NCBI GenBank assembly: GCA_012730015.1
Contig: JAAYBT010000103.1
Location: 1-35,309 of the forward strand
DNA length: 35,309 bases
Direction: 5' to 3'
DNA from: Clostridiaceae bacterium
GTDB lineage: Bacteria; Bacillota; Clostridia; Acetivibrionales; DTU013
The notes under the pieces are model-generated. The model saw nothing but the letters and a program-made list of their open reading frames with translations, ran no database searches and was not told where the DNA came from. A program made the translations under genes and the position numbers. This document shows, one piece after another, positions 4,797 to 23,815 of the stretch (within the stretch, counting starts at the first letter, position 1; the number at the start of each line of letters is the position of its first letter).

Positions 4797-6305
4797 TCAT
4801 TCATAAGTGGCGGCAGTCTCTCTCATCATCTCGTTAAAACCAAATCCATCAATTAGCTCAACAAACATGGATACGACATCACTGTCAAACTGTGTTCCTG
4901 CACCCATAATCAACTGCTGTCTGGCATCCTTAAGGTTGAGCTTGGTCCTGTATAGGCGGTCAGACATCATTGCATCAAAGGCATCCGATACGGATATTAT
5001 CCTAGCAAGCAGAGGGATCTCATCGCCACGCAGTCCCTCCGGATAACCTGTCCCGTCAACTCTTTCATGGTGGCATTTGACAACTGGAACTACGTCCTTA
5101 AACATTGATACCGCAGACAAGATGCGTGCTCCCTTAAGAGGATGCTTCTGAATCTCAATCAGCTCCCTCGTCGTTAGTTTCTCTGTTTTTAACAGGATGT
5201 CATCTGCTGTGCCTATCTTTCCTATATCATGAAAAATACCGCTTATGCGTAGTGTCTCCATATCCTGACTGGACAAACCGGCCGCCTCGCCTATCTTGAC
5301 TGCATAGTATGCAACGCGGTCCGAATGGCCCCTTGTATATATGTCCTTTGCATCAACTGCCAGACGTAGCACCTCAATTGTGTCCATATACCTAAGCTTA
5401 AGCTGATCGTATGTTTTGTTGAGCTCGTCATTTTTCATGTTGACCAAGGAATGAAGAAAAGCATTGTTGATGGATGAAGCCGCCTGACTTGTGTAAATCT
5501 CCAGAAGCTTGATACCATCTTCTATATTCTTGCTCTCAACATAAATAACTCCAATCGTCTGTTTAAACTCATTATTCAAGGGAAAAATAACGCCTTCCTC
5601 CAGGTGTACAATCTGTTGGGATATCCTTGCGTAGCCTATATGCTCCATCAGCGTGGGGCTTAGCATCTCCATAAAGTGCGTTATCTCAGCTTTGTACTTC
5701 CCTATTCCTTTAAAAATACTTTTATTCTCATCGATTATGTCTGTGGTATCATCAACCAGAATAAAGGCATTCTTACTATCAACAAGGGGCATTATTTCAG
5801 TCAAGATTTCTTCCATTATTGAGTCGATAGGTTGCAAGGAATATATCTTAGGAACGGCCTGCAATATCTTGTTGAGGCCATCTCTAAATTTCTTGATCGT
5901 CCTCATTTGAGAAATAGATTTGATTCCTGACTCCACAAGCAATAGCAGTTGATCAAACCTATCGCTTTTCTCGCAGTAGCTTTGTATGTCCAGCGCCTTT
6001 ATTGTCTCCAGTGGCGGTGCCAAATCCTTATGTCCGGTAAGTAATAGAATATACAGCTCACTGTTAAATTCCCTGATTGTCTCAACAACCTTGTCACCAT
6101 GAATCGGATACATCAAATAGTCCAGTACCATCAGGTCAAAGTGCTCGCTTCTAATCTTTTCTACAGCCTCCAAAGGGTCGGTAACCCCCACGACATCATA
6201 GCCGCTGCGCTTAAGCACAACAGTTAATGAGTCAATGATTCCGACCTCATCATCAACAACCAGTATTTTGTAATTCAATGAGGTGTTACGTATTTTTCTT
6301 CGCAT
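4797..6305 (-). CDS. Response regulator with REC and HD-GYP domains (predicted c-di-GMP phosphodiesterase)
   Basis: A 502-aa regulator. The REC domain (about 12-130) has the acidic pair D18/D19, phospho-acceptor D62 in LMVLDYLMYP, T90 in LLLTGH and K113 in CEKSD. The middle region (about 140-290) looks like a GAF-type sensory fold but I do not see a firm motif. The HD-GYP domain (about 305-495) has GIFHDIGKIG with H359/D360 and HHERVDGTGYP (412-422), so the metal site and GYP signature are intact. Predicted job: hydrolyse cyclic-di-GMP when phosphorylated. Its ATG follows the kinase stop with no gap, and AGGAGG lies eight bases upstream inside the kinase gene. It is therefore almost certainly the partner of that kinase and the last gene of the NRPS unit. 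Confidence 0.92.
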   Translation of the reverse strand: MRRKIRNTSLNYKILVVDDEVGIIDSLTVVLKRSGYDVVGVTDPLEAVEKIRSEHFDLMVLDYLMYPIHGDKVVETIREFNSELYILLLTGHKDLAPPLETIKALDIQSYCEKSDRFDQLLLLVESGIKSISQMRTIKKFRDGLNKILQAVPKIYSLQPIDSIMEEILTEIMPLVDSKNAFILVDDTTDIIDENKSIFKGIGKYKAEITHFMEMLSPTLMEHIGYARISQQIVHLEEGVIFPLNNEFKQTIGVIYVESKNIEDGIKLLEIYTSQAASSINNAFLHSLVNMKNDELNKTYDQLKLRYMDTIEVLRLAVDAKDIYTRGHSDRVAYYAVKIGEAAGLSSQDMETLRISGIFHDIGKIGTADDILLKTEKLTTRELIEIQKHPLKGARILSAVSMFKDVVPVVKCHHERVDGTGYPEGLRGDEIPLLARIISVSDAFDAMMSDRLYRTKLNLKDARQQLIMGAGTQFDSDVVSMFVELIDGFGFNEMMRETAATYE

Positions 6306-8165
6306 CTATTCTGCCTCCTGAGTGCTGTATGTAATGCATGGTATTGAAATAAAAAATGTTGTACCGCAATCTTCTTTAGTAGTAAAAGATATGTTTCCGC
6401 TAAAGCGTCCCTTTATTGTTGCGTATGACATATAAAGGCCCAAGCCGGTACCTTTTTTGCCTTTAGTCGTAACCATCTCCTTAAAAAGTCTGTCTGCAAC
6501 CTTTTTGGGTATGCCCTTTCCAAAATCCTTGAAGGTGAACTCCACATTGTCGCCGCTACGAACAATAAGCAATTCAATGACGCCATTCTTCCCTTCATAG
6601 GAATGCATAGCATTAATTATTATGTTATCAAACACCTGAACAAGATTGTTAACCTCCCCCTTGATTTCAGTGCTTTTGTCAATGCAAAGATCAATTTTCA
6701 AAACACAGTGGTGCCTCTTTAATTCGTGCTTGAGCAGTAGATCAACTCTTTTGACAACCTCATCCACTGTAAATTTATCGGTGCCAGAGGCGCTCATTTG
6801 AACAGCCTGTCCCTTGACTGCTGAGATAACATCCGACATATATGCACAATAAGGCCTCATCTTCTCCAGCCAGCCAAGCATATCCTTAGCGATCTCCTTG
6901 TGATCCTGTTCGGTCACGCTCCTGTCATCGATAGAATCCCGATATTCATATGTCAGGTCCTTAAGGGCTTCGATGGCACCGGATATTGACATTATCGGGG
7001 TCTTAAGGTTGTGAGCAATCCCTCCGATCAGCTGCCCCAGTGACGCAAGCCGCTCCTGCTCCAGCAGAATAGCCTGCTGTTCCTTTATTGCTTCAATATT
7101 CTTCTTGTGCTCGGTAATATCCTTCAAGAGGATGAGTGTACCAAGGTAATGATCCTGGGAATTGATCTGTGTGATTTCCACTGTGAAAAAACTTTCAAAA
7201 CCTTCGGATATTATGTATTTCTCAAAGGTCTGTCTTTTCTCCTTCCGTGAAGCCACAACCACTTCAGCCAGCTCTGCTATGTCAATGTTTAGACCATCTA
7301 TAGATTGAGCTAAATCATACAAATTCTCATGCCTATTTGCGTCCAGCTTATTATTGCATAAGTGATTAAACATCCTGTTATACTCTATTATATTTGCGCT
7401 TTCATCAATAACTACAAACGCATCGGAAATATTGTCCACAACATTTTTGAGGGCAATTGGAATAACATTTAAAAACTTATATTTAAAAATGGCTACAGCA
7501 AAGCATAGTACTGCAAAAGAAAAAGATATGTTTTCCAGGAAAACCGGCATTTCTACTATACCCTGTGTACTAAGTAAGACAACAACCAGTGGTAGCAATA
7601 CGCCTATGAATATTAGTATCGACTGCTTTGAGAAGAAGCCGGAGTTTCTTATTGAAAAATATAGTAAGTAGTATAGCCCTATTAAAATACACGCATATGA
7701 ATAGATCTCGTGTACAATATAGTATTTGCCGTATACAAAACCAGTACTAATATAGCTATACTCTATAATGAATAGGTTATGGTACACATTTGTAAAAACC
7801 ATAACAAGAGAAATCGTAGGCACTATAAGTAGAAGCAGGTGTTTTGCGGAAATGCTAATTTTTGTCCTGGCATATATAATGCCAGTGAATAAAAGTGAAA
7901 TAGGAATAAATATAACACCGATGTAGGAAATATGTTCCAAGCTAATTACTAGGCTCTCATTCTTATCTGGAATTATTATCTGAAGAAGCCTGCAAATACT
8001 CCATATAAACATAAATGCTACATTCAATAGGAAGACATAATGAATCTGCTGTTTCTTGCGTATTCTGCTTATATATATTCCAATAAAGGCAATAAGCAGC
8101 ACCGATACGAATAAAAGAAAAAAAAGTATGTCATTGTGGTAGATAATCGGAATCACCTCTATCAA
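6306..8165 (-). CDS. Membrane sensor histidine kinase (7TM N-terminus, PAS, HisKA-like, HATPase)
   Basis: A 619-aa kinase. Residues 1-230 hold about seven hydrophobic helices in the pattern of the 7TM histidine-kinase N-terminus (HISYIGVIFIPISLLFTGIIY is typical). A PAS domain follows (about 240-355, NISDAFVVIDESANIIEYN). The phospho-acceptor box GGIAHNLKTP has H385. The ATPase has an N box (DNIIINAMHSYEG, about 513-525), DFGKGIP (547-553) and KGTGLGLYMS (571-580), all intact. A TTG at 8165 is used as start, with TTAGG upstream; a GTG at 8156 is an alternative. It begins eight bases after the NRPS stop and ends directly against the HD-GYP regulator. The signal sensed is unknown; a small hydrophobic or membrane-borne ligand is an inference. 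Confidence 0.9.
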   Translation of the reverse strand: MIEVIPIIYHNDILFFLLFVSVLLIAFIGIYISRIRKKQQIHYVFLLNVAFMFIWSICRLLQIIIPDKNESLVISLEHISYIGVIFIPISLLFTGIIYARTKISISAKHLLLLIVPTISLVMVFTNVYHNLFIIEYSYISTGFVYGKYYIVHEIYSYACILIGLYYLLYFSIRNSGFFSKQSILIFIGVLLPLVVVLLSTQGIVEMPVFLENISFSFAVLCFAVAIFKYKFLNVIPIALKNVVDNISDAFVVIDESANIIEYNRMFNHLCNNKLDANRHENLYDLAQSIDGLNIDIAELAEVVVASRKEKRQTFEKYIISEGFESFFTVEITQINSQDHYLGTLILLKDITEHKKNIEAIKEQQAILLEQERLASLGQLIGGIAHNLKTPIMSISGAIEALKDLTYEYRDSIDDRSVTEQDHKEIAKDMLGWLEKMRPYCAYMSDVISAVKGQAVQMSASGTDKFTVDEVVKRVDLLLKHELKRHHCVLKIDLCIDKSTEIKGEVNNLVQVFDNIIINAMHSYEGKNGVIELLIVRSGDNVEFTFKDFGKGIPKKVADRLFKEMVTTKGKKGTGLGLYMSYATIKGRFSGNISFTTKEDCGTTFFISIPCITYSTQEAE

Positions 8166-8173
8166 GTGTCTGC

Positions 8174-11100
8174 CTAATTAAAGCTATCCCTAATAAAGCC
8201 TGTTACCTGCATATGTTCAATAAGCTTCTTTATGTAATCCAATGTTATCATTGGCCATTCAAACCCTACCCTGGCAAGGTTGTTTTTAGTCATGTTGGAA
8301 TTAATGCTAATTGGCGAGCCATATTCCAGGGCATTATCCTTGCTCATATCTGCAATTATTCCAGCTAGTATGTCATGTTTCGTTCTGTCCTCTGAAATCC
8401 TTTCAACCAGCTTGCTGAAATCATCTGTCTTCAAAACCTTGATCCGCAGCGACAGCCTGGAAAACATGTTAATTAACTCCCCGATCGTGACCTCATTATT
8501 ATTTGTAATATGATATACTAATTCGTTCCGTCCGGGCTCCTGCATAAGTAATAATATGGCTTTGGCTGCTAAGTCCACAGGAGAGAATTCCACATCAACA
8601 TCAAGTTGATTTTCGGGTATAGCCTTTAATAGAATGATGGATCTGATGATACTGTAAAAGGCATTTTCATGTATGTTTTTCTGAAAATATCCATCGGAAA
8701 AACGTCCCGTCAAATTGCCCATCCTGAATATAGTCGCATCCATTCCCTGCTTGACCTCGTTAAATATGACCTTCTCAGCCTCAAATTTACTTCTCACATA
8801 TACGTTCTCTTTGTAGTTTTGTCCAACAAAGAAATCGTCCTCATTGAAGTCACGGGCTTCACCTTCAAAAGCAGTCAAATAGCTTCCGGCTATTGCGAGA
8901 GTAGAAATATAGTACAGCTTCTTTTCATACTCTCGAACAAATTGTGCAATTCTTTGCGTGCCCGCTACGTTGGTGTTAGCAAATTCAGCGTAATCTCCAT
9001 AGTATTTTACAATGGCCGCTGAATGAATAACCGTATCAATTGTCTCGGATAATTTCAAATAATCCTTATCCTCTAGAGAAAACTTATCTTGTCCGATATC
9101 ACCCTCTATTACAAAAATTCGCTTATTAATAAATCTTGCATAATCAAAGGCAAAATAATCCTCAAGAGTTCCCTTTAGCTTGTTGACAGCATTGCTCTGA
9201 TCCTTTCCCCTAATAAGACAATATACAGTTGCATTCGAGTTGTCAATAAGCTCCCTCAAAATATGTATGCCAAGGAACCCCGTTACTCCGGTTAGCAAGA
9301 CATTATTCAGTTTACCAGCCTTCTTATTCTTGTTTTCCAAGCCTAATTCCTTCAAATCAAATATATCTTTATTACTGCTTGCAGCCACTTCCTCAAAAGC
9401 ATCTGCGAGTATCTTATCCGACATTAGCTTCACCGTCTGGCAATTATAGAAATCAGCTGCTGTAATACCCCAATTATGCTTGTGTGCCCTGATCAGCATA
9501 TCTATGATCGCTAAGGAATCAGCTCCCAGATCAAAGAGGTTGTCATTTACGCCGAAGTCACTCCTTTTAAGGCATTCTTGGCATATCTCCAGGAGTACTC
9601 TTTCTACTTCATTTGACGGTGCTTCGTATGAAGTCGTTGCCTTCTGACTCATATCAGGCTCAGGTAATGCTTTTCTGTTTATCTTTCCATTTGATAACAA
9701 GGGCAGACTGTTAAGCTGAACAAAAAAGGATGGAACCATGTAATCCGGCAACCTACTTAAAAGGAATGCCTTCAAAGCTTCATAGGATATCTGTTTTTGT
9801 GAGACATAGTATGCGCACAAGTAATTTTCTCCACTTGCCCTGGCTTTACCAACGACAACCACTTCATTGACATCCTTGTGCTCAAGCAGTCTTTTTTCTA
9901 TTTCTCCCAGTTCGATTCTGAATCCTCTTATTTTTATCTGTGAATCTATTCTTCCAAGATACTCGATATCACCCTTGGGATACCATCTGGCTAAATCACC
10001 TGTGCGATAAATAATTCCGCCGGGATTAAAAGGATTGTCTACAAACTTTTCCCTTGTCAGCTCTTCATTATTTATGTACCCTCGTGCTACACCAACTCCT
10101 CCGATATAAAGCTCTCCAGCTATACCGATTGGAAGCAGATTCATGTTTTTATCCAGTATGAAAATTTTCGTATTGTCTATGGGTTTTCCTATAGGCACTG
10201 TCTTCAGCGGCTTCTTCTCAGGACGACAATCATAGTATGTCACGTCTATCGAAGCCTCAGTAGGCCCATATAAATTTGATAATAAAGTACCATTATTTTT
10301 GTTCAACAATCGGTTGAATTTCTCAACCTGCTGAACAGTTAAAGCTTCACCGCTGGCAAAGACCTGCTTCAAAGAAGAAAGCCTGTGCGTATCTTTCGTT
10401 TCATCAATGTAATCTAAAAACATATTAAGCATGGAGGGCACAAAATGGAGTGTTGTGACCACGTTCTTTTCAATTGCCTTAATAATTTCTTCAGGATCCT
10501 TCTCGCCATCTGGAATAAGAAAGCATGTCTCTGCTCCCACTATAAATCCCCAGATTAATTCCCAAACAGATACATCAAAGGTATAAGTTGTTTTTTGCAG
10601 TATAACATCCTTATCATCCAGAGGGTATTTCTTCTGCATCCAGTTCAATCTGTTAATTAAGCTGTGATGCTCTATCATTACCCCCTTGGGATTTCCTGTA
10701 GAGCCCGATGTATAAATAATGTAGGCCAGGTCGGTAGGTTTGTTGATGTTTTCAAGATTAGTATCTCCATATTTGGATTGCAGACAATCATCCAAATTTA
10801 TTACTGTTCCGCCGAATTTCATTTCTTTCGCATGCTCAGACAGGGTCAGCAAAAGCTTCGATTTACTGTTTTGCAGGATATATTCCTTTCTCTCCAGAGG
10901 GTATTTGGGGTCAATAGGCAGGTATGCACCTCCAGCCTTTAGGATACCCATTATTCCAATAATCATCTCAAGCGAGCGCTGAACCATTATCGATACTGCT
11001 TCGTCAGCGGTAAGGCCTTTGTCCCGCAGCATCCTTGCTACTTGGTTGGCTTTCCTGTTTAGCTCATCATATGTAATGCTTTTTCCCTCAAATACCGCCG

Positions 11101-12526
11101 CTCTTTTATTCGGCGTCCTTTTGACCTGTTCTTCAAACAACTGCTGTATCGTCTTGTCCCGCGGATAGTCGCAGGCAGTGTCATTAAAGTCCTTAAGTAA
11201 TTTGTGTTTTTCTAGTTCCGATATCATCTCCAATTTTGATATTGGCTTATAAGGATTATCTAAGCCATGCCACAATATGCTTAATATGTGATGATGTATG
11301 AAGTCAATTTCAGTTGGATTAAACATGCTTAAAAGATAGTCGTAATCGATGATAAATTTATCATCATTATCTCTGTCGTTAACATTTATAATAAGAGATT
11401 CTATCTGATGTCCGCTGAAATGCCACCTTGTTGTAAAGGGCTCATAACTATCATTCATAAACTTGGAGTTTTGATATGTCAAAACAATATCGAAAATATT
11501 ATCCGCATTGCTTTGTTCCCTGATTTGTTTTAGTAATAGATTGTATGGGTATTTCTGATGCCTGAGAACTGATAATATCTCCCTTGAGATTGATTCTGCA
11601 AAGGTTTTCAAGTTCCAATCATCATGAATATCTACCCGAACGGGAACCGCTGTGCTTACAAACATGCCAAAGGTAGCTTTTTCTTTGGCATTTGTTCGAT
11701 TTAATAAGGTCGTACCGATTGTTAGGTCCTCTTTCCCGGATACCCTGTTGATATACATTGATAGGGCGGCAAAGAACAATGCATATTCAGAAACCTTATT
11801 TTCACTGCAATATTTGCGTAATTTATCAGTTAATTTTTTAGGCAATACATGTGTTTTACGTCTGGCTTTGGAGTCAAGGCTCAATGATGTACGGGGCTTT
11901 AGCGTAGTTACCTCCTTGAAAGCAGACAGCCTCTTGGTCCAAAAATCATTATCTGATTTGAACCTCCCGGATTCAAAATAATCATTTTCTCTCAGAATGA
12001 AGTCTAAATAGGATGGCTTCTTTGATGGGTCAATCAGTTCGCCATTTTTTAGTTTGGAATAATACTCGACAATGTTGTTGCCAACTATACTCATAGACCA
12101 TGCATCAGAAATCAAATGATGCATTTTTACAAAGAAACCACCGACATTGTCGCTTATTTTTATCAAATCAAAATGAAATAAGTCGCTATCTATTAGGTCG
12201 AAAGGCTCTTCTGACCTAGCCTTGTCCCAGGCAAATAGTTCTTCGCTGGATGACTGGCTAAAATCGAAAAATTGGAGCTTTTTGTATTTGTAATTCGACA
12301 CATATTGATATGGCTCATTATCCTTTTGTGTAAACCTTAATCGAATAGCATCATTCTTCTCAACGAGAAGATTTACAGCCTTCTCCAATAGTAGATAATC
12401 AATATCTCCCTGTAATTTTAACGTTGCAGCAATAGTACCAATGCTTGTCCCCGGATATAGCTTCTCAGTATACCATATCCCCTTCTGAGGCTGCGTGAGA
12501 GGATAATAGTCGATATTGCATCGCAT
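8174..12526 (-). CDS. Single-module nonribosomal peptide synthetase: condensation - adenylation (Ser-like) - carrier - terminal reductase
   Basis: A complete 1450-aa C-A-T-R module. The C domain (about 1-440) has HHLISDAWS (136-144), with Ala replacing the usual Gly after the Asp. The A domain (about 455-960) has YTSGSTGNPKG (605-615), YGPTE and NGKINRKAL. Lining up with GrsA by eye gives the pocket code D651 V652 W655 H694 F723 S725 L752 I760 D761 K948. DVWHFSLIDK is close to known serine codes (EntF DVWHFSLVDK). The carrier has GADSL with S1004. The reductase (about 1070-1450) has GVTGFLG (1080-1086) and Y1243/K1247. Expected product: an N-acylated or N-aminoacyl serinal, or the alcohol. 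The donor and the phosphopantetheinyl transferase are not encoded in this window. The ATG at 12526 follows GGGGTG by six bases; a GTG at 12535 would add three residues. Confidence 0.93.
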   Translation of the reverse strand: MRCNIDYYPLTQPQKGIWYTEKLYPGTSIGTIAATLKLQGDIDYLLLEKAVNLLVEKNDAIRLRFTQKDNEPYQYVSNYKYKKLQFFDFSQSSSEELFAWDKARSEEPFDLIDSDLFHFDLIKISDNVGGFFVKMHHLISDAWSMSIVGNNIVEYYSKLKNGELIDPSKKPSYLDFILRENDYFESGRFKSDNDFWTKRLSAFKEVTTLKPRTSLSLDSKARRKTHVLPKKLTDKLRKYCSENKVSEYALFFAALSMYINRVSGKEDLTIGTTLLNRTNAKEKATFGMFVSTAVPVRVDIHDDWNLKTFAESISREILSVLRHQKYPYNLLLKQIREQSNADNIFDIVLTYQNSKFMNDSYEPFTTRWHFSGHQIESLIINVNDRDNDDKFIIDYDYLLSMFNPTEIDFIHHHILSILWHGLDNPYKPISKLEMISELEKHKLLKDFNDTACDYPRDKTIQQLFEEQVKRTPNKRAAVFEGKSITYDELNRKANQVARMLRDKGLTADEAVSIMVQRSLEMIIGIMGILKAGGAYLPIDPKYPLERKEYILQNSKSKLLLTLSEHAKEMKFGGTVINLDDCLQSKYGDTNLENINKPTDLAYIIYTSGSTGNPKGVMIEHHSLINRLNWMQKKYPLDDKDVILQKTTYTFDVSVWELIWGFIVGAETCFLIPDGEKDPEEIIKAIEKNVVTTLHFVPSMLNMFLDYIDETKDTHRLSSLKQVFASGEALTVQQVEKFNRLLNKNNGTLLSNLYGPTEASIDVTYYDCRPEKKPLKTVPIGKPIDNTKIFILDKNMNLLPIGIAGELYIGGVGVARGYINNEELTREKFVDNPFNPGGIIYRTGDLARWYPKGDIEYLGRIDSQIKIRGFRIELGEIEKRLLEHKDVNEVVVVGKARASGENYLCAYYVSQKQISYEALKAFLLSRLPDYMVPSFFVQLNSLPLLSNGKINRKALPEPDMSQKATTSYEAPSNEVERVLLEICQECLKRSDFGVNDNLFDLGADSLAIIDMLIRAHKHNWGITAADFYNCQTVKLMSDKILADAFEEVAASSNKDIFDLKELGLENKNKKAGKLNNVLLTGVTGFLGIHILRELIDNSNATVYCLIRGKDQSNAVNKLKGTLEDYFAFDYARFINKRIFVIEGDIGQDKFSLEDKDYLKLSETIDTVIHSAAIVKYYGDYAEFANTNVAGTQRIAQFVREYEKKLYYISTLAIAGSYLTAFEGEARDFNEDDFFVGQNYKENVYVRSKFEAEKVIFNEVKQGMDATIFRMGNLTGRFSDGYFQKNIHENAFYSIIRSIILLKAIPENQLDVDVEFSPVDLAAKAILLLMQEPGRNELVYHITNNNEVTIGELINMFSRLSLRIKVLKTDDFSKLVERISEDRTKHDILAGIIADMSKDNALEYGSPISINSNMTKNNLARVGFEWPMITLDYIKKLIEHMQVTGFIRDSFN

Positions 12527-22499: not shown

Positions 22500-23564
22500 T
22501 TATACCTCACAACCATCAACAATGAAAACATTGGTGAACATAGAAAGGTCAATTTCCTTATAGATTGATTGCTTTTGCATTTTGCTATTGTAGACAATCC
22601 GGACAACAGGTCTGGTGGGCGCACTTCTGTTATCACGCACCACGATGCCCCTTTCCTTGGTATTCAGCATGACACCCGTTCCAACCGGATAGACGGAGAC
22701 ATATTTTACAAAGCTCTCAATAACGGTTCGGTCGAAATGATTTACTCCAAGGGTCGTAATATATTCATAGACCTCATTCGGTCTAAGCTTTTTCCTGTAA
22801 ACTCGATCTGAAGTCAGCGCATCATAAACATCTGCAATCGCAACAATCCTGGCACATATTTGAATATTGTCCCCCTTTAGCTGGAGGGGATATCCGCTGC
22901 CATCATACCTTTCATGATGTCCGAAGGCAATATAAGCCGAAATCATGCTTATCCCTTTACTTTTCTTTAATAGTTCATAGCCAAGAACAGTATGCTTCTT
23001 TATTTCCTCGAATTCCTCGACCGTGAGCTGTGATGGCTTTTTAAGAATCTCCATGGGGATACACAGTTTGCCTATATCATGCATCATAGCTCCGACTCCA
23101 AGCTCCCTAAGCCTGTGGATGTCAAAGCCAAGGCCTATTCCGGTAATAAGCGACAAAATACACACATTAACCGAATGCTCGAAGGTGTAGTCGTCTACGG
23201 ATTTTATCTCTGAAAGGTTATAAAGGATATCATCGTTGGTTAACAGCTCGTCCAGAATTTTATTCACCATAAGCTTCACTTCTTTTACATCCAGTGTAGG
23301 TGAAAACTGGTAATTGCTCATCATCCTTTTTACAAGAGTTTTTGCTTCCCTATGTGTTTTTCCCTTTATAATATCCTTAAGCTCTATGTCTGCAGAAATA
23401 TCATCCTCAAGATATACTTCAGAAATACCAAGCTGCTTCAACTTCGTTACATAACAATCTCTTAATTCCATACCCTTTGATAGCAATACTCCTCCTTCGG
23501 AATTGAAGATCGTACGGGCAAGCTTTGCGCCAATCTGTAATGATTCCAGTTTCACTTTTCGCAT
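22500..23564 (-). CDS. HD-GYP domain protein (predicted c-di-GMP phosphodiesterase)
   Basis: A 354-aa protein. The N-terminal region (about 1-60, VKLESLQIGAKLARTIFNSEG, then GVLLSKGMELRD) resembles the DUF3391-like cap found before HD-GYP domains. The HD-GYP core (about 125-300) has MMHDIGKLCIP with H162/D163 and HHERYDGSGYP (216-226), both intact. A C-terminal extension (about 295-354) with GTGVMLNTKERGIVV is a common PilZ-like-sized tail. It has no REC domain, so its input is not a paired kinase. The ATG at 23564 has GGGAGG upstream. An upstream in-frame start at 23648 would translate the 15-bp repeats and seems less likely. It lies 218 bases upstream of dnaE. Confidence 0.9.
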   Translation of the reverse strand: MRKVKLESLQIGAKLARTIFNSEGGVLLSKGMELRDCYVTKLKQLGISEVYLEDDISADIELKDIIKGKTHREAKTLVKRMMSNYQFSPTLDVKEVKLMVNKILDELLTNDDILYNLSEIKSVDDYTFEHSVNVCILSLITGIGLGFDIHRLRELGVGAMMHDIGKLCIPMEILKKPSQLTVEEFEEIKKHTVLGYELLKKSKGISMISAYIAFGHHERYDGSGYPLQLKGDNIQICARIVAIADVYDALTSDRVYRKKLRPNEVYEYITTLGVNHFDRTVIESFVKYVSVYPVGTGVMLNTKERGIVVRDNRSAPTRPVVRIVYNSKMQKQSIYKEIDLSMFTNVFIVDGCEV

Positions 23565-23588
23565 TTCAGCCTCCCAGAGGTTTTCTTT

Positions 23589-23633
23589 TGTATAAAGCAC
23601 TGTTGTATAAAGCGCTATCGAGTAAAGTACTAT
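23589..23633 (-). repeat. Three 15-bp tandem repeats upstream of the HD-GYP gene
   Basis: Plus-strand units TGTATAAAGCACTGT, TGTATAAAGCGCTAT and CGAGTAAAGTACTAT lie head to tail. The first two differ at two positions; the third matches the second at ten of fifteen. The units lie in the leader or promoter of the HD-GYP gene. If the longer in-frame ORF were translated they would give the five-residue repeat IVLYS-IALYT-TVLYT. Confidence 0.65.
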
Positions 23634-23815
23634 TAACCTATTCGACAAAATAAATGAAATTCCTTCTCATATTTTTACATGAATAAATAAAAACAAATTT
23701 ACTTTTCCGATATAAACCCCACCCTCAAATGGGTAATTATGGGTAATATGTGTATTTTTGAATCAGTAATGGTATTATATGTTTATCGCTTTGCTAAAGG
23801 AGTCCAGGTGATCAT

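Follow-up and report, generated by a model that had tools for sequence, protein, structure and literature searches.

In the diffusible signal factor (DSF) system of Xanthomonas, RpfF-RpfC-RpfG, a signal synthase is combined with a polytopic sensor kinase and a REC-HD-GYP regulator whose output is the breakdown of cyclic di-GMP (c-di-GMP); DSF activates the kinase, the HD-GYP partner of which was the first to be shown to hydrolyse c-di-GMP (PMC5391125). The valdiazen/fragin (ham) system of Burkholderia likewise provides a small-molecule quorum signal, made through a pathway linked to a nonribosomal peptide synthetase (NRPS; PMC5878181). The locus described here lies in a stretch of 35,309 nucleotides from a Clostridiaceae bacterium (contig JAAYBT010000103.1; the whole stretch is referred to as the window) and places a one-module NRPS directly before the genes of a sensor histidine kinase and an HD-GYP response regulator. 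We propose, with a probability of roughly 0.6, that the three genes are a self-contained cassette for cell-cell signalling in which the NRPS, as signal synthase, makes a small N-acyl-amino aldehyde or alcohol; the adjacent kinase would respond to this autoinducer, and the output of the circuit would be the breakdown of c-di-GMP.

The three genes follow each other in the order NRPS, kinase, regulator, with 8 nt between the NRPS stop and the kinase start and 0 nt between kinase and regulator, and form an apparent operon; open reading frame (ORF) translations place mutS2 upstream and typA downstream of it. An earlier reading made from the letters of the window without database searches (the sequence-only reading) had described a lone module with no partner nearby. 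The module is real and single, but that reading overlooked both two-component genes and the conserved operon to which they belong. The regulator keeps an intact HD-GYP motif (HDIGK and HHERVDGTGYP), which predicts phosphodiesterase activity. No DNA-binding domain was found in it with Pfam, which rules it out as a local activator acting directly on the NRPS gene.

This arrangement was conserved well beyond the window. Among the first NRPS relatives recovered, Gracilibacter BRH_c7a (L004) showed the identical three-gene order flanked by unrelated neighbours, and relatives in the organism's own family shared the order too. The regulator alone was then used as query, so that an NRPS was not required, in samples of 58 (order), 391 (class), and 398 (phylum) genomes, and the neighbourhoods were read. 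An NRPS lay directly upstream in 32 of the 40 kinase-regulator pairs of this family whose next gene was visible, which is the genetic coupling over many genomes expected of a synthase-sensor circuit; four of the other eight had upstream a gene joining PilZ, a c-di-GMP receptor domain, to a domain here called X (in L107 another small gene sits between it and the kinase), and four had neither. The count of 32 takes in L049, which fell under the score filter owing to masked bases, L096, whose cassette is split by insertions resembling a mobile element, and four C-terminal NRPS pieces (L078, L089, L090, and L093), of which L093 is part of the complete L056 and L089 shows only a release domain of the third type described below. 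Regulators without an adjacent kinase never had an NRPS as the next upstream gene. The cassette order held across many families despite differing flanks, in Clostridia and other Firmicutes, the contexts ranging, for instance, from that of L004 to the mutS2-typA slot. Reciprocally, all 12 other full-length condensation domains with at least 40% identity in the 398-genome phylum sample sat in the cassette; weaker ones (34-38% identity) lay outside it, two of them adjoining other two-component genes. In eleven genomes, the organism's own included, the cassette NRPS was the only NRPS, and ordinary multi-gene NRPS clusters (L005, L007, L008, L010, L016, and L017) lacked a kinase or regulator of this kind over the stretches that were read.

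Sensor and synthase also diverged together. In 22 cassettes with seven-transmembrane (7TM) kinases, with the masked X residues of L049 left out, sensor distance correlated with the distance between adenylation (A) domains (partial r 0.57, P 0.001) and with the sharing of an A-domain code (partial r 0.39, P 0.001), after controlling for the distances of kinase core, REC, and HD-GYP; the kinase core showed no such correlation (-0.14 and -0.07, respectively). The result persisted when near-duplicates or the three most divergent members were removed, and when ranks were used. Two relatives illustrate the pattern. L049, from the same family and the same mutS2-typA slot as the window, was 81-84% identical to it in kinase core, REC, and DUF3369, with an A domain only 43% identical and carrying a threonine code; L004 was 66-79% identical in the same parts, with an A domain 63% identical and a serine code in both. 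The L004 sensor was slightly closer to that of the window than the L049 sensor was (56 vs. 52% identity). In G003, G006, and others the sensor half was wholly swapped for a HAMP-type input, the kinase core still being 74% identical.

Table 1. Features of the cassette in the window, and separate PilZ-X genes of related loci (coordinates in their own sequences).
Feature	Position	Strand	Evidence
C-A-T-R nonribosomal peptide synthetase, 1453 aa	8174..12535	-	ORF and Pfam domains
Starter-type condensation domain, residues 9-447	11195..12511	-	PF00668 1.2e-90; tree with RzmA-Cs and EntF
Adenylation domain, residues 467-951, serine code DVWHFSLIDK	9683..11137	-	PF00501 and PF13193; alignment
Thiolation (carrier) domain, residues 980-1040, DLGADSLAI	9416..9598	-	PF00550 and motif
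Thioester reductase domain, residues 1078-1448, GVTGFLG, Y1246/K1250	8192..9304	-	PF07993 2.2e-48, TIGR01746, motifs
Sensor histidine kinase, 619 aa: HisKA_7TM input, HisKA (HNLKTP), HATPase	6306..8165	-	PF16927 5.7e-37, PF00512, PF02518; motifs
7TM sensor domain of the kinase, residues 17-236, proposed ligand site	7458..8117	-	PF16927; co-divergence with A domain
Response regulator REC-DUF3369-HD-GYP, 502 aa, presumed c-di-GMP phosphodiesterase	4797..6305	-	PF00072, PF11849, PF13487; motifs
Separate PilZ-X gene	L083:3147-4778		
Separate PilZ-X gene	L084:3854-5485		
Separate PilZ-X gene	L085:4176-5807		
Separate PilZ-X gene	L107:114-1838		

The NRPS is read from a GTG start, the plus strand across 8174-12526 being riddled with stops, and its condensation (C), A, thiolation (T), and reductase (R) domains follow in this order, as in reductase-ended NRPSs (Table 1). 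Pfam matches far exceeded their cut-offs (Condensation, PP-binding, and NAD_binding_4, the latter at residues 1081-1327), with the A domain composed of AMP-binding (467-820) and a C-terminal part (878-951); the TIGR01746 thioester-reductase model scored 203.6 bits, a little short of its own cut-off of 213.4. Core motifs were intact in all four domains (MHHLISDAW, YTSGSTGNPKG, DLGADSLAI, GVTGFLG, and ST...YVRSK), and the reductase that the sequence-only reading had called intact has indeed its GVTGFLG motif and Y/K pair in place. An alignment anchored on A-domain motifs gave a pocket identical to the one that reading had picked out by eye, D V W H F S L I D K. The EntF serine code is DVWHFSLVDK, one conservative step away.

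The type of the C domain bears on the donor, which the sequence-only reading had expected to come from elsewhere. First C domains of all cassettes formed one clade (SH-like support 0.998), which joined the starter domain RzmA-Cs and EntF with support 1.0, apart from the LCL reference TycC6; internal C domains of two- and three-module cassettes fell elsewhere, with the TycC LCL domain. RzmA-Cs is the structure 7C1H (PMC7804268). The window C domain thus groups with starter domains, and an acyl donor is to be expected without any partner NRPS. The alternative of an LCL domain docking to a partner NRPS elsewhere was rejected, this being a starter-clade domain and the sole C domain of the 87%-complete genome. 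At the acyl-length position R148 of RzmA the window has Met, as does CdaPS1, which loads C6; on this basis a short or medium acyl chain is weakly predicted. With the pocket as read and a starter-type C domain, N-acyl serinal or serinol remains the best guess for the product, as first supposed; the pyrazine-type derivative offered beside it would need a free amine, which the starter C domain would be expected to acylate. No acyl ligase, phosphopantetheinyl transferase (PPTase), or exporter gene was found in the window, as had been stated, on reading of the ORF translations (not every ORF was run against Pfam). The organism's genome has one PPTase only, AcpS-sized, and near-complete cassette genomes often have a single one of that size, so the carrier is probably primed by AcpS. 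The analogy drawn earlier with peptide aldehydes of gut clostridial NRPSs found nothing in its support, the genomic evidence pointing to a signalling circuit instead.

Cassette NRPSs comprised one to three modules and differed in A code and in release domain. The code that we take to be for serine occurred in the window, L004, L092, L098-L100, and L105, and that presumably for threonine (DFWNIGMVHK) in L049, L051, L057, L075, L077, and L101; second modules of L055 and L088 had DVQFIAHV, which we assign to proline, and further codes were Gly-like, by the same assumption, or, in several cases, gave no clear reading. Release was by an R domain, by a thioesterase (TE; L057, L075, L077, L092, L101, L105, L106, and L123), or by a third type of domain which replaces either at the C-termini of L082:5392-9714, L102:5805-10139, and L103:4637-8977. 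This third type, apparently a Rossmann-type domain, matched PDB 9e4s/9e4x (E ~1e-75), entries that bear the name 'Amino acid adenylation domain protein'; we suspect an aldehyde-forming reductase.

Some relatives point to gain or loss of the cassette. In G001, mutS2 and typA are directly adjacent, the cassette being absent; in G004 the slot holds kinase and regulator with no NRPS (pieced together from L128 and L054, the latter ending at a contig edge and resolved as NRPS-free by the former), and in G005 a piece of the NRPS is joined to a piece of the regulator. Kinase-regulator pairs of the same family without NRPS were also present in L119, L121, and L122. Such NRPS-free pairs, including that of L128/L054, are possible listeners, as expected if the cassette serves signalling, and we counted them in favour of that reading.

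Some loci depart from the arrangement in other ways. The NRPS and the kinase of L096:3859-10964 are interrupted by two ORFs of 480 aa that look identical and are probably a mobile element. L130:2297-9589 has a histidine kinase, a C-A-T-R NRPS, and a LuxR-type response regulator in a row, DNA-binding output replacing HD-GYP. In L129:1052-10092, a more distant C-A-T-R NRPS lies beside a polyprenyl-synthase-family gene, a HisKA_3 kinase, and a LuxR-type regulator, resembling a comQ-P-A quorum-sensing locus. The window itself has a second HD-GYP-type gene (22500-23648), with no REC domain detected and unrelated to the cassette.

In the circuit that we propose, the A domain would load an amino acid, here serine, and the starter C domain would acylate it with a short or medium chain whose donor is probably acyl-CoA or acyl-ACP; the R domain would release N-acyl-serinal, possibly reduced further to serinol. 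Once outside the cell, this small amphiphilic product would be sensed by the 7TM domain of the adjacent kinase, which would phosphorylate the HD-GYP regulator, and hydrolysis of c-di-GMP by the latter would bring about a change of lifestyle. We give about even odds to the wider proposal that these cassettes are a large, previously undescribed class of communication systems in Firmicutes, in which NRPSs of one to three modules (their codes often those for Ser, Thr, Gly, or Pro, and their release domain R, TE, or the third type) make a lipo-amino signal for the adjacent kinase with c-di-GMP as output; synthase and sensor would diversify in concert, c-di-GMP would gate some synthases through a fused PilZ domain, and some genomes would only listen. 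Several observations weigh against the signalling circuit. The cassette has no exporter. Within the kinase, the correlation with the A domain drops with distance from the NRPS (sensor 0.57, PAS 0.34, core -0.14), and exchange of NRPS and sensor as one linked block could also give co-divergence, but such exchange would keep synthase and sensor together as a matched pair requires. Sensor type, 7TM or HAMP-type, is not strictly matched to A code. Finally, the PilZ-bearing NRPSs show that c-di-GMP may act on the synthase, and this suits a flow of information in the reverse direction as well.

That reverse flow, the main rival, has the kinase sensing an environmental cue and the HD-GYP regulator lowering c-di-GMP, which in turn controls the NRPS, so that the product is an output metabolite and not a signal; we consider it unlikely, if the least so of the alternatives. 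In its favour, a PilZ domain followed by domain X (~330 aa) is fused to the NRPS N-terminus in L056, L061/L109, L092, and L123, with PilZ above the Pfam cut-off in L056, L061, L092, and L123 and the c-di-GMP-binding motifs RxxxR and (D/N)x(S/T/N)xxG conserved, with L061 departing from the second motif at a G. As a gene of its own, PilZ-X takes the place of the NRPS upstream of the kinase in another family (Table 1). Domain X had no Pfam match and no credible PDB match; an acyltransferase-like partner is one possibility for it. For some members of the family, then, synthesis and response both touch c-di-GMP. Against the reverse flow, PilZ is absent from the window NRPS and from most others, and no PilZ-X gene was found in the organism's own genome; a scan of 16 loci at gathering threshold gave no c-di-GMP riboswitch ahead of the NRPS; and a sensor whose divergence tracks the amino-acid code would be unexpected of an environmental sensor. 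A lone c-di-GMP-I riboswitch match (85.6 bits) occurred at L055:893-977, ahead of a small HD-domain gene adjoining the cassette. For PilZ-bearing members a loop of signal and c-di-GMP control is quite possible.

It is still less probable that the product is a siderophore, an antibiotic, or a protease inhibitor, with the kinase-regulator pair as a self-sensing or immunity module. The serine code is EntF-like, reductase-ended NRPSs elsewhere yield bioactive aldehydes, and antibiotic clusters commonly carry self-sensing regulators. However, exporter, uptake, and resistance genes are absent from the cassette, the synthases have one to three modules only, the output protein, a presumed c-di-GMP phosphodiesterase, is no local transcription factor, and A codes differ among relatives that retain kinase core and regulator. 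That the linkage reflects common descent and chance order, NRPS and two-component system being functionally uncoupled, is very improbable: the mutS2-linked site recurs in several genomes, so that conservation is partly shared descent, but the order is retained with different flanks over many families, the slot is empty in G001, and sensor and A code co-diverge.

If the signalling circuit holds, it would give a function to small orphan NRPSs of anaerobes that have few other natural products, provide receptor kinases of unknown ligand with candidates predictable from the neighbouring A-domain code, and couple nonribosomal chemistry directly to c-di-GMP control. Natural variants of one slot (Ser or Thr code, 7TM or another sensor, receiver-only, or deleted) make receptor specificity directly testable. 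Among the open-access papers searched, none described an operon of NRPS, histidine kinase, and HD-GYP regulator or a combination of PilZ with NRPS; subscription journals were mostly outside this scope, so that the absence of an earlier description is not proven. To our knowledge, non-peptide autoinducers are scarcely known in Clostridia.

Among described systems, CqsA-CqsS and LqsA-LqsS resemble the cassette in that a synthase gene adjoins that of a polytopic sensor kinase for its small amphiphilic product, and differ in their PLP-dependent synthase, alpha-hydroxyketone signal, and other regulators. MxcG (myxochelin) and AusA (aureusimine) are NRPSs likewise ending in a reductase, and the alignment with MxcG was nearly full length (NRPS 10-1441 on 4-1432 of 1442); the window NRPS nevertheless scored far under the curated cut-offs of both (618/2300 and 1002/2500 bits, respectively), and we know of no two-component cassette role for either. 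It is not an EntF-type siderophore synthetase (545/2400 bits), having R in place of TE and a histidine kinase and response regulator as neighbours. The NRPS mru_0068 of M. ruminantium also belongs to an anaerobe, has its C domain first, and lies among signalling genes, but it has two modules and its neighbours encode serine phosphatases, an anti-sigma factor antagonist, and a MatE exporter, a kinase/HD-GYP pair not being described (PMC2812497). The ham system differs in its diazeniumdiolate chemistry, its larger number of genes, and the lack of an adjacent kinase/HD-GYP pair. In function, the proposed circuit would be an NRPS-based counterpart of the Rpf system, with which the cassette shares a REC-HD-GYP regulator with intact motif. 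RpfF is a fatty-acid-type DSF synthase in place of which the window has an NRPS, RpfC is a hybrid kinase, the window regulator has in addition a DUF3369 domain, and the hosts are Firmicutes. By this analogy, the cassette may work like the Rpf system without being a member of it.

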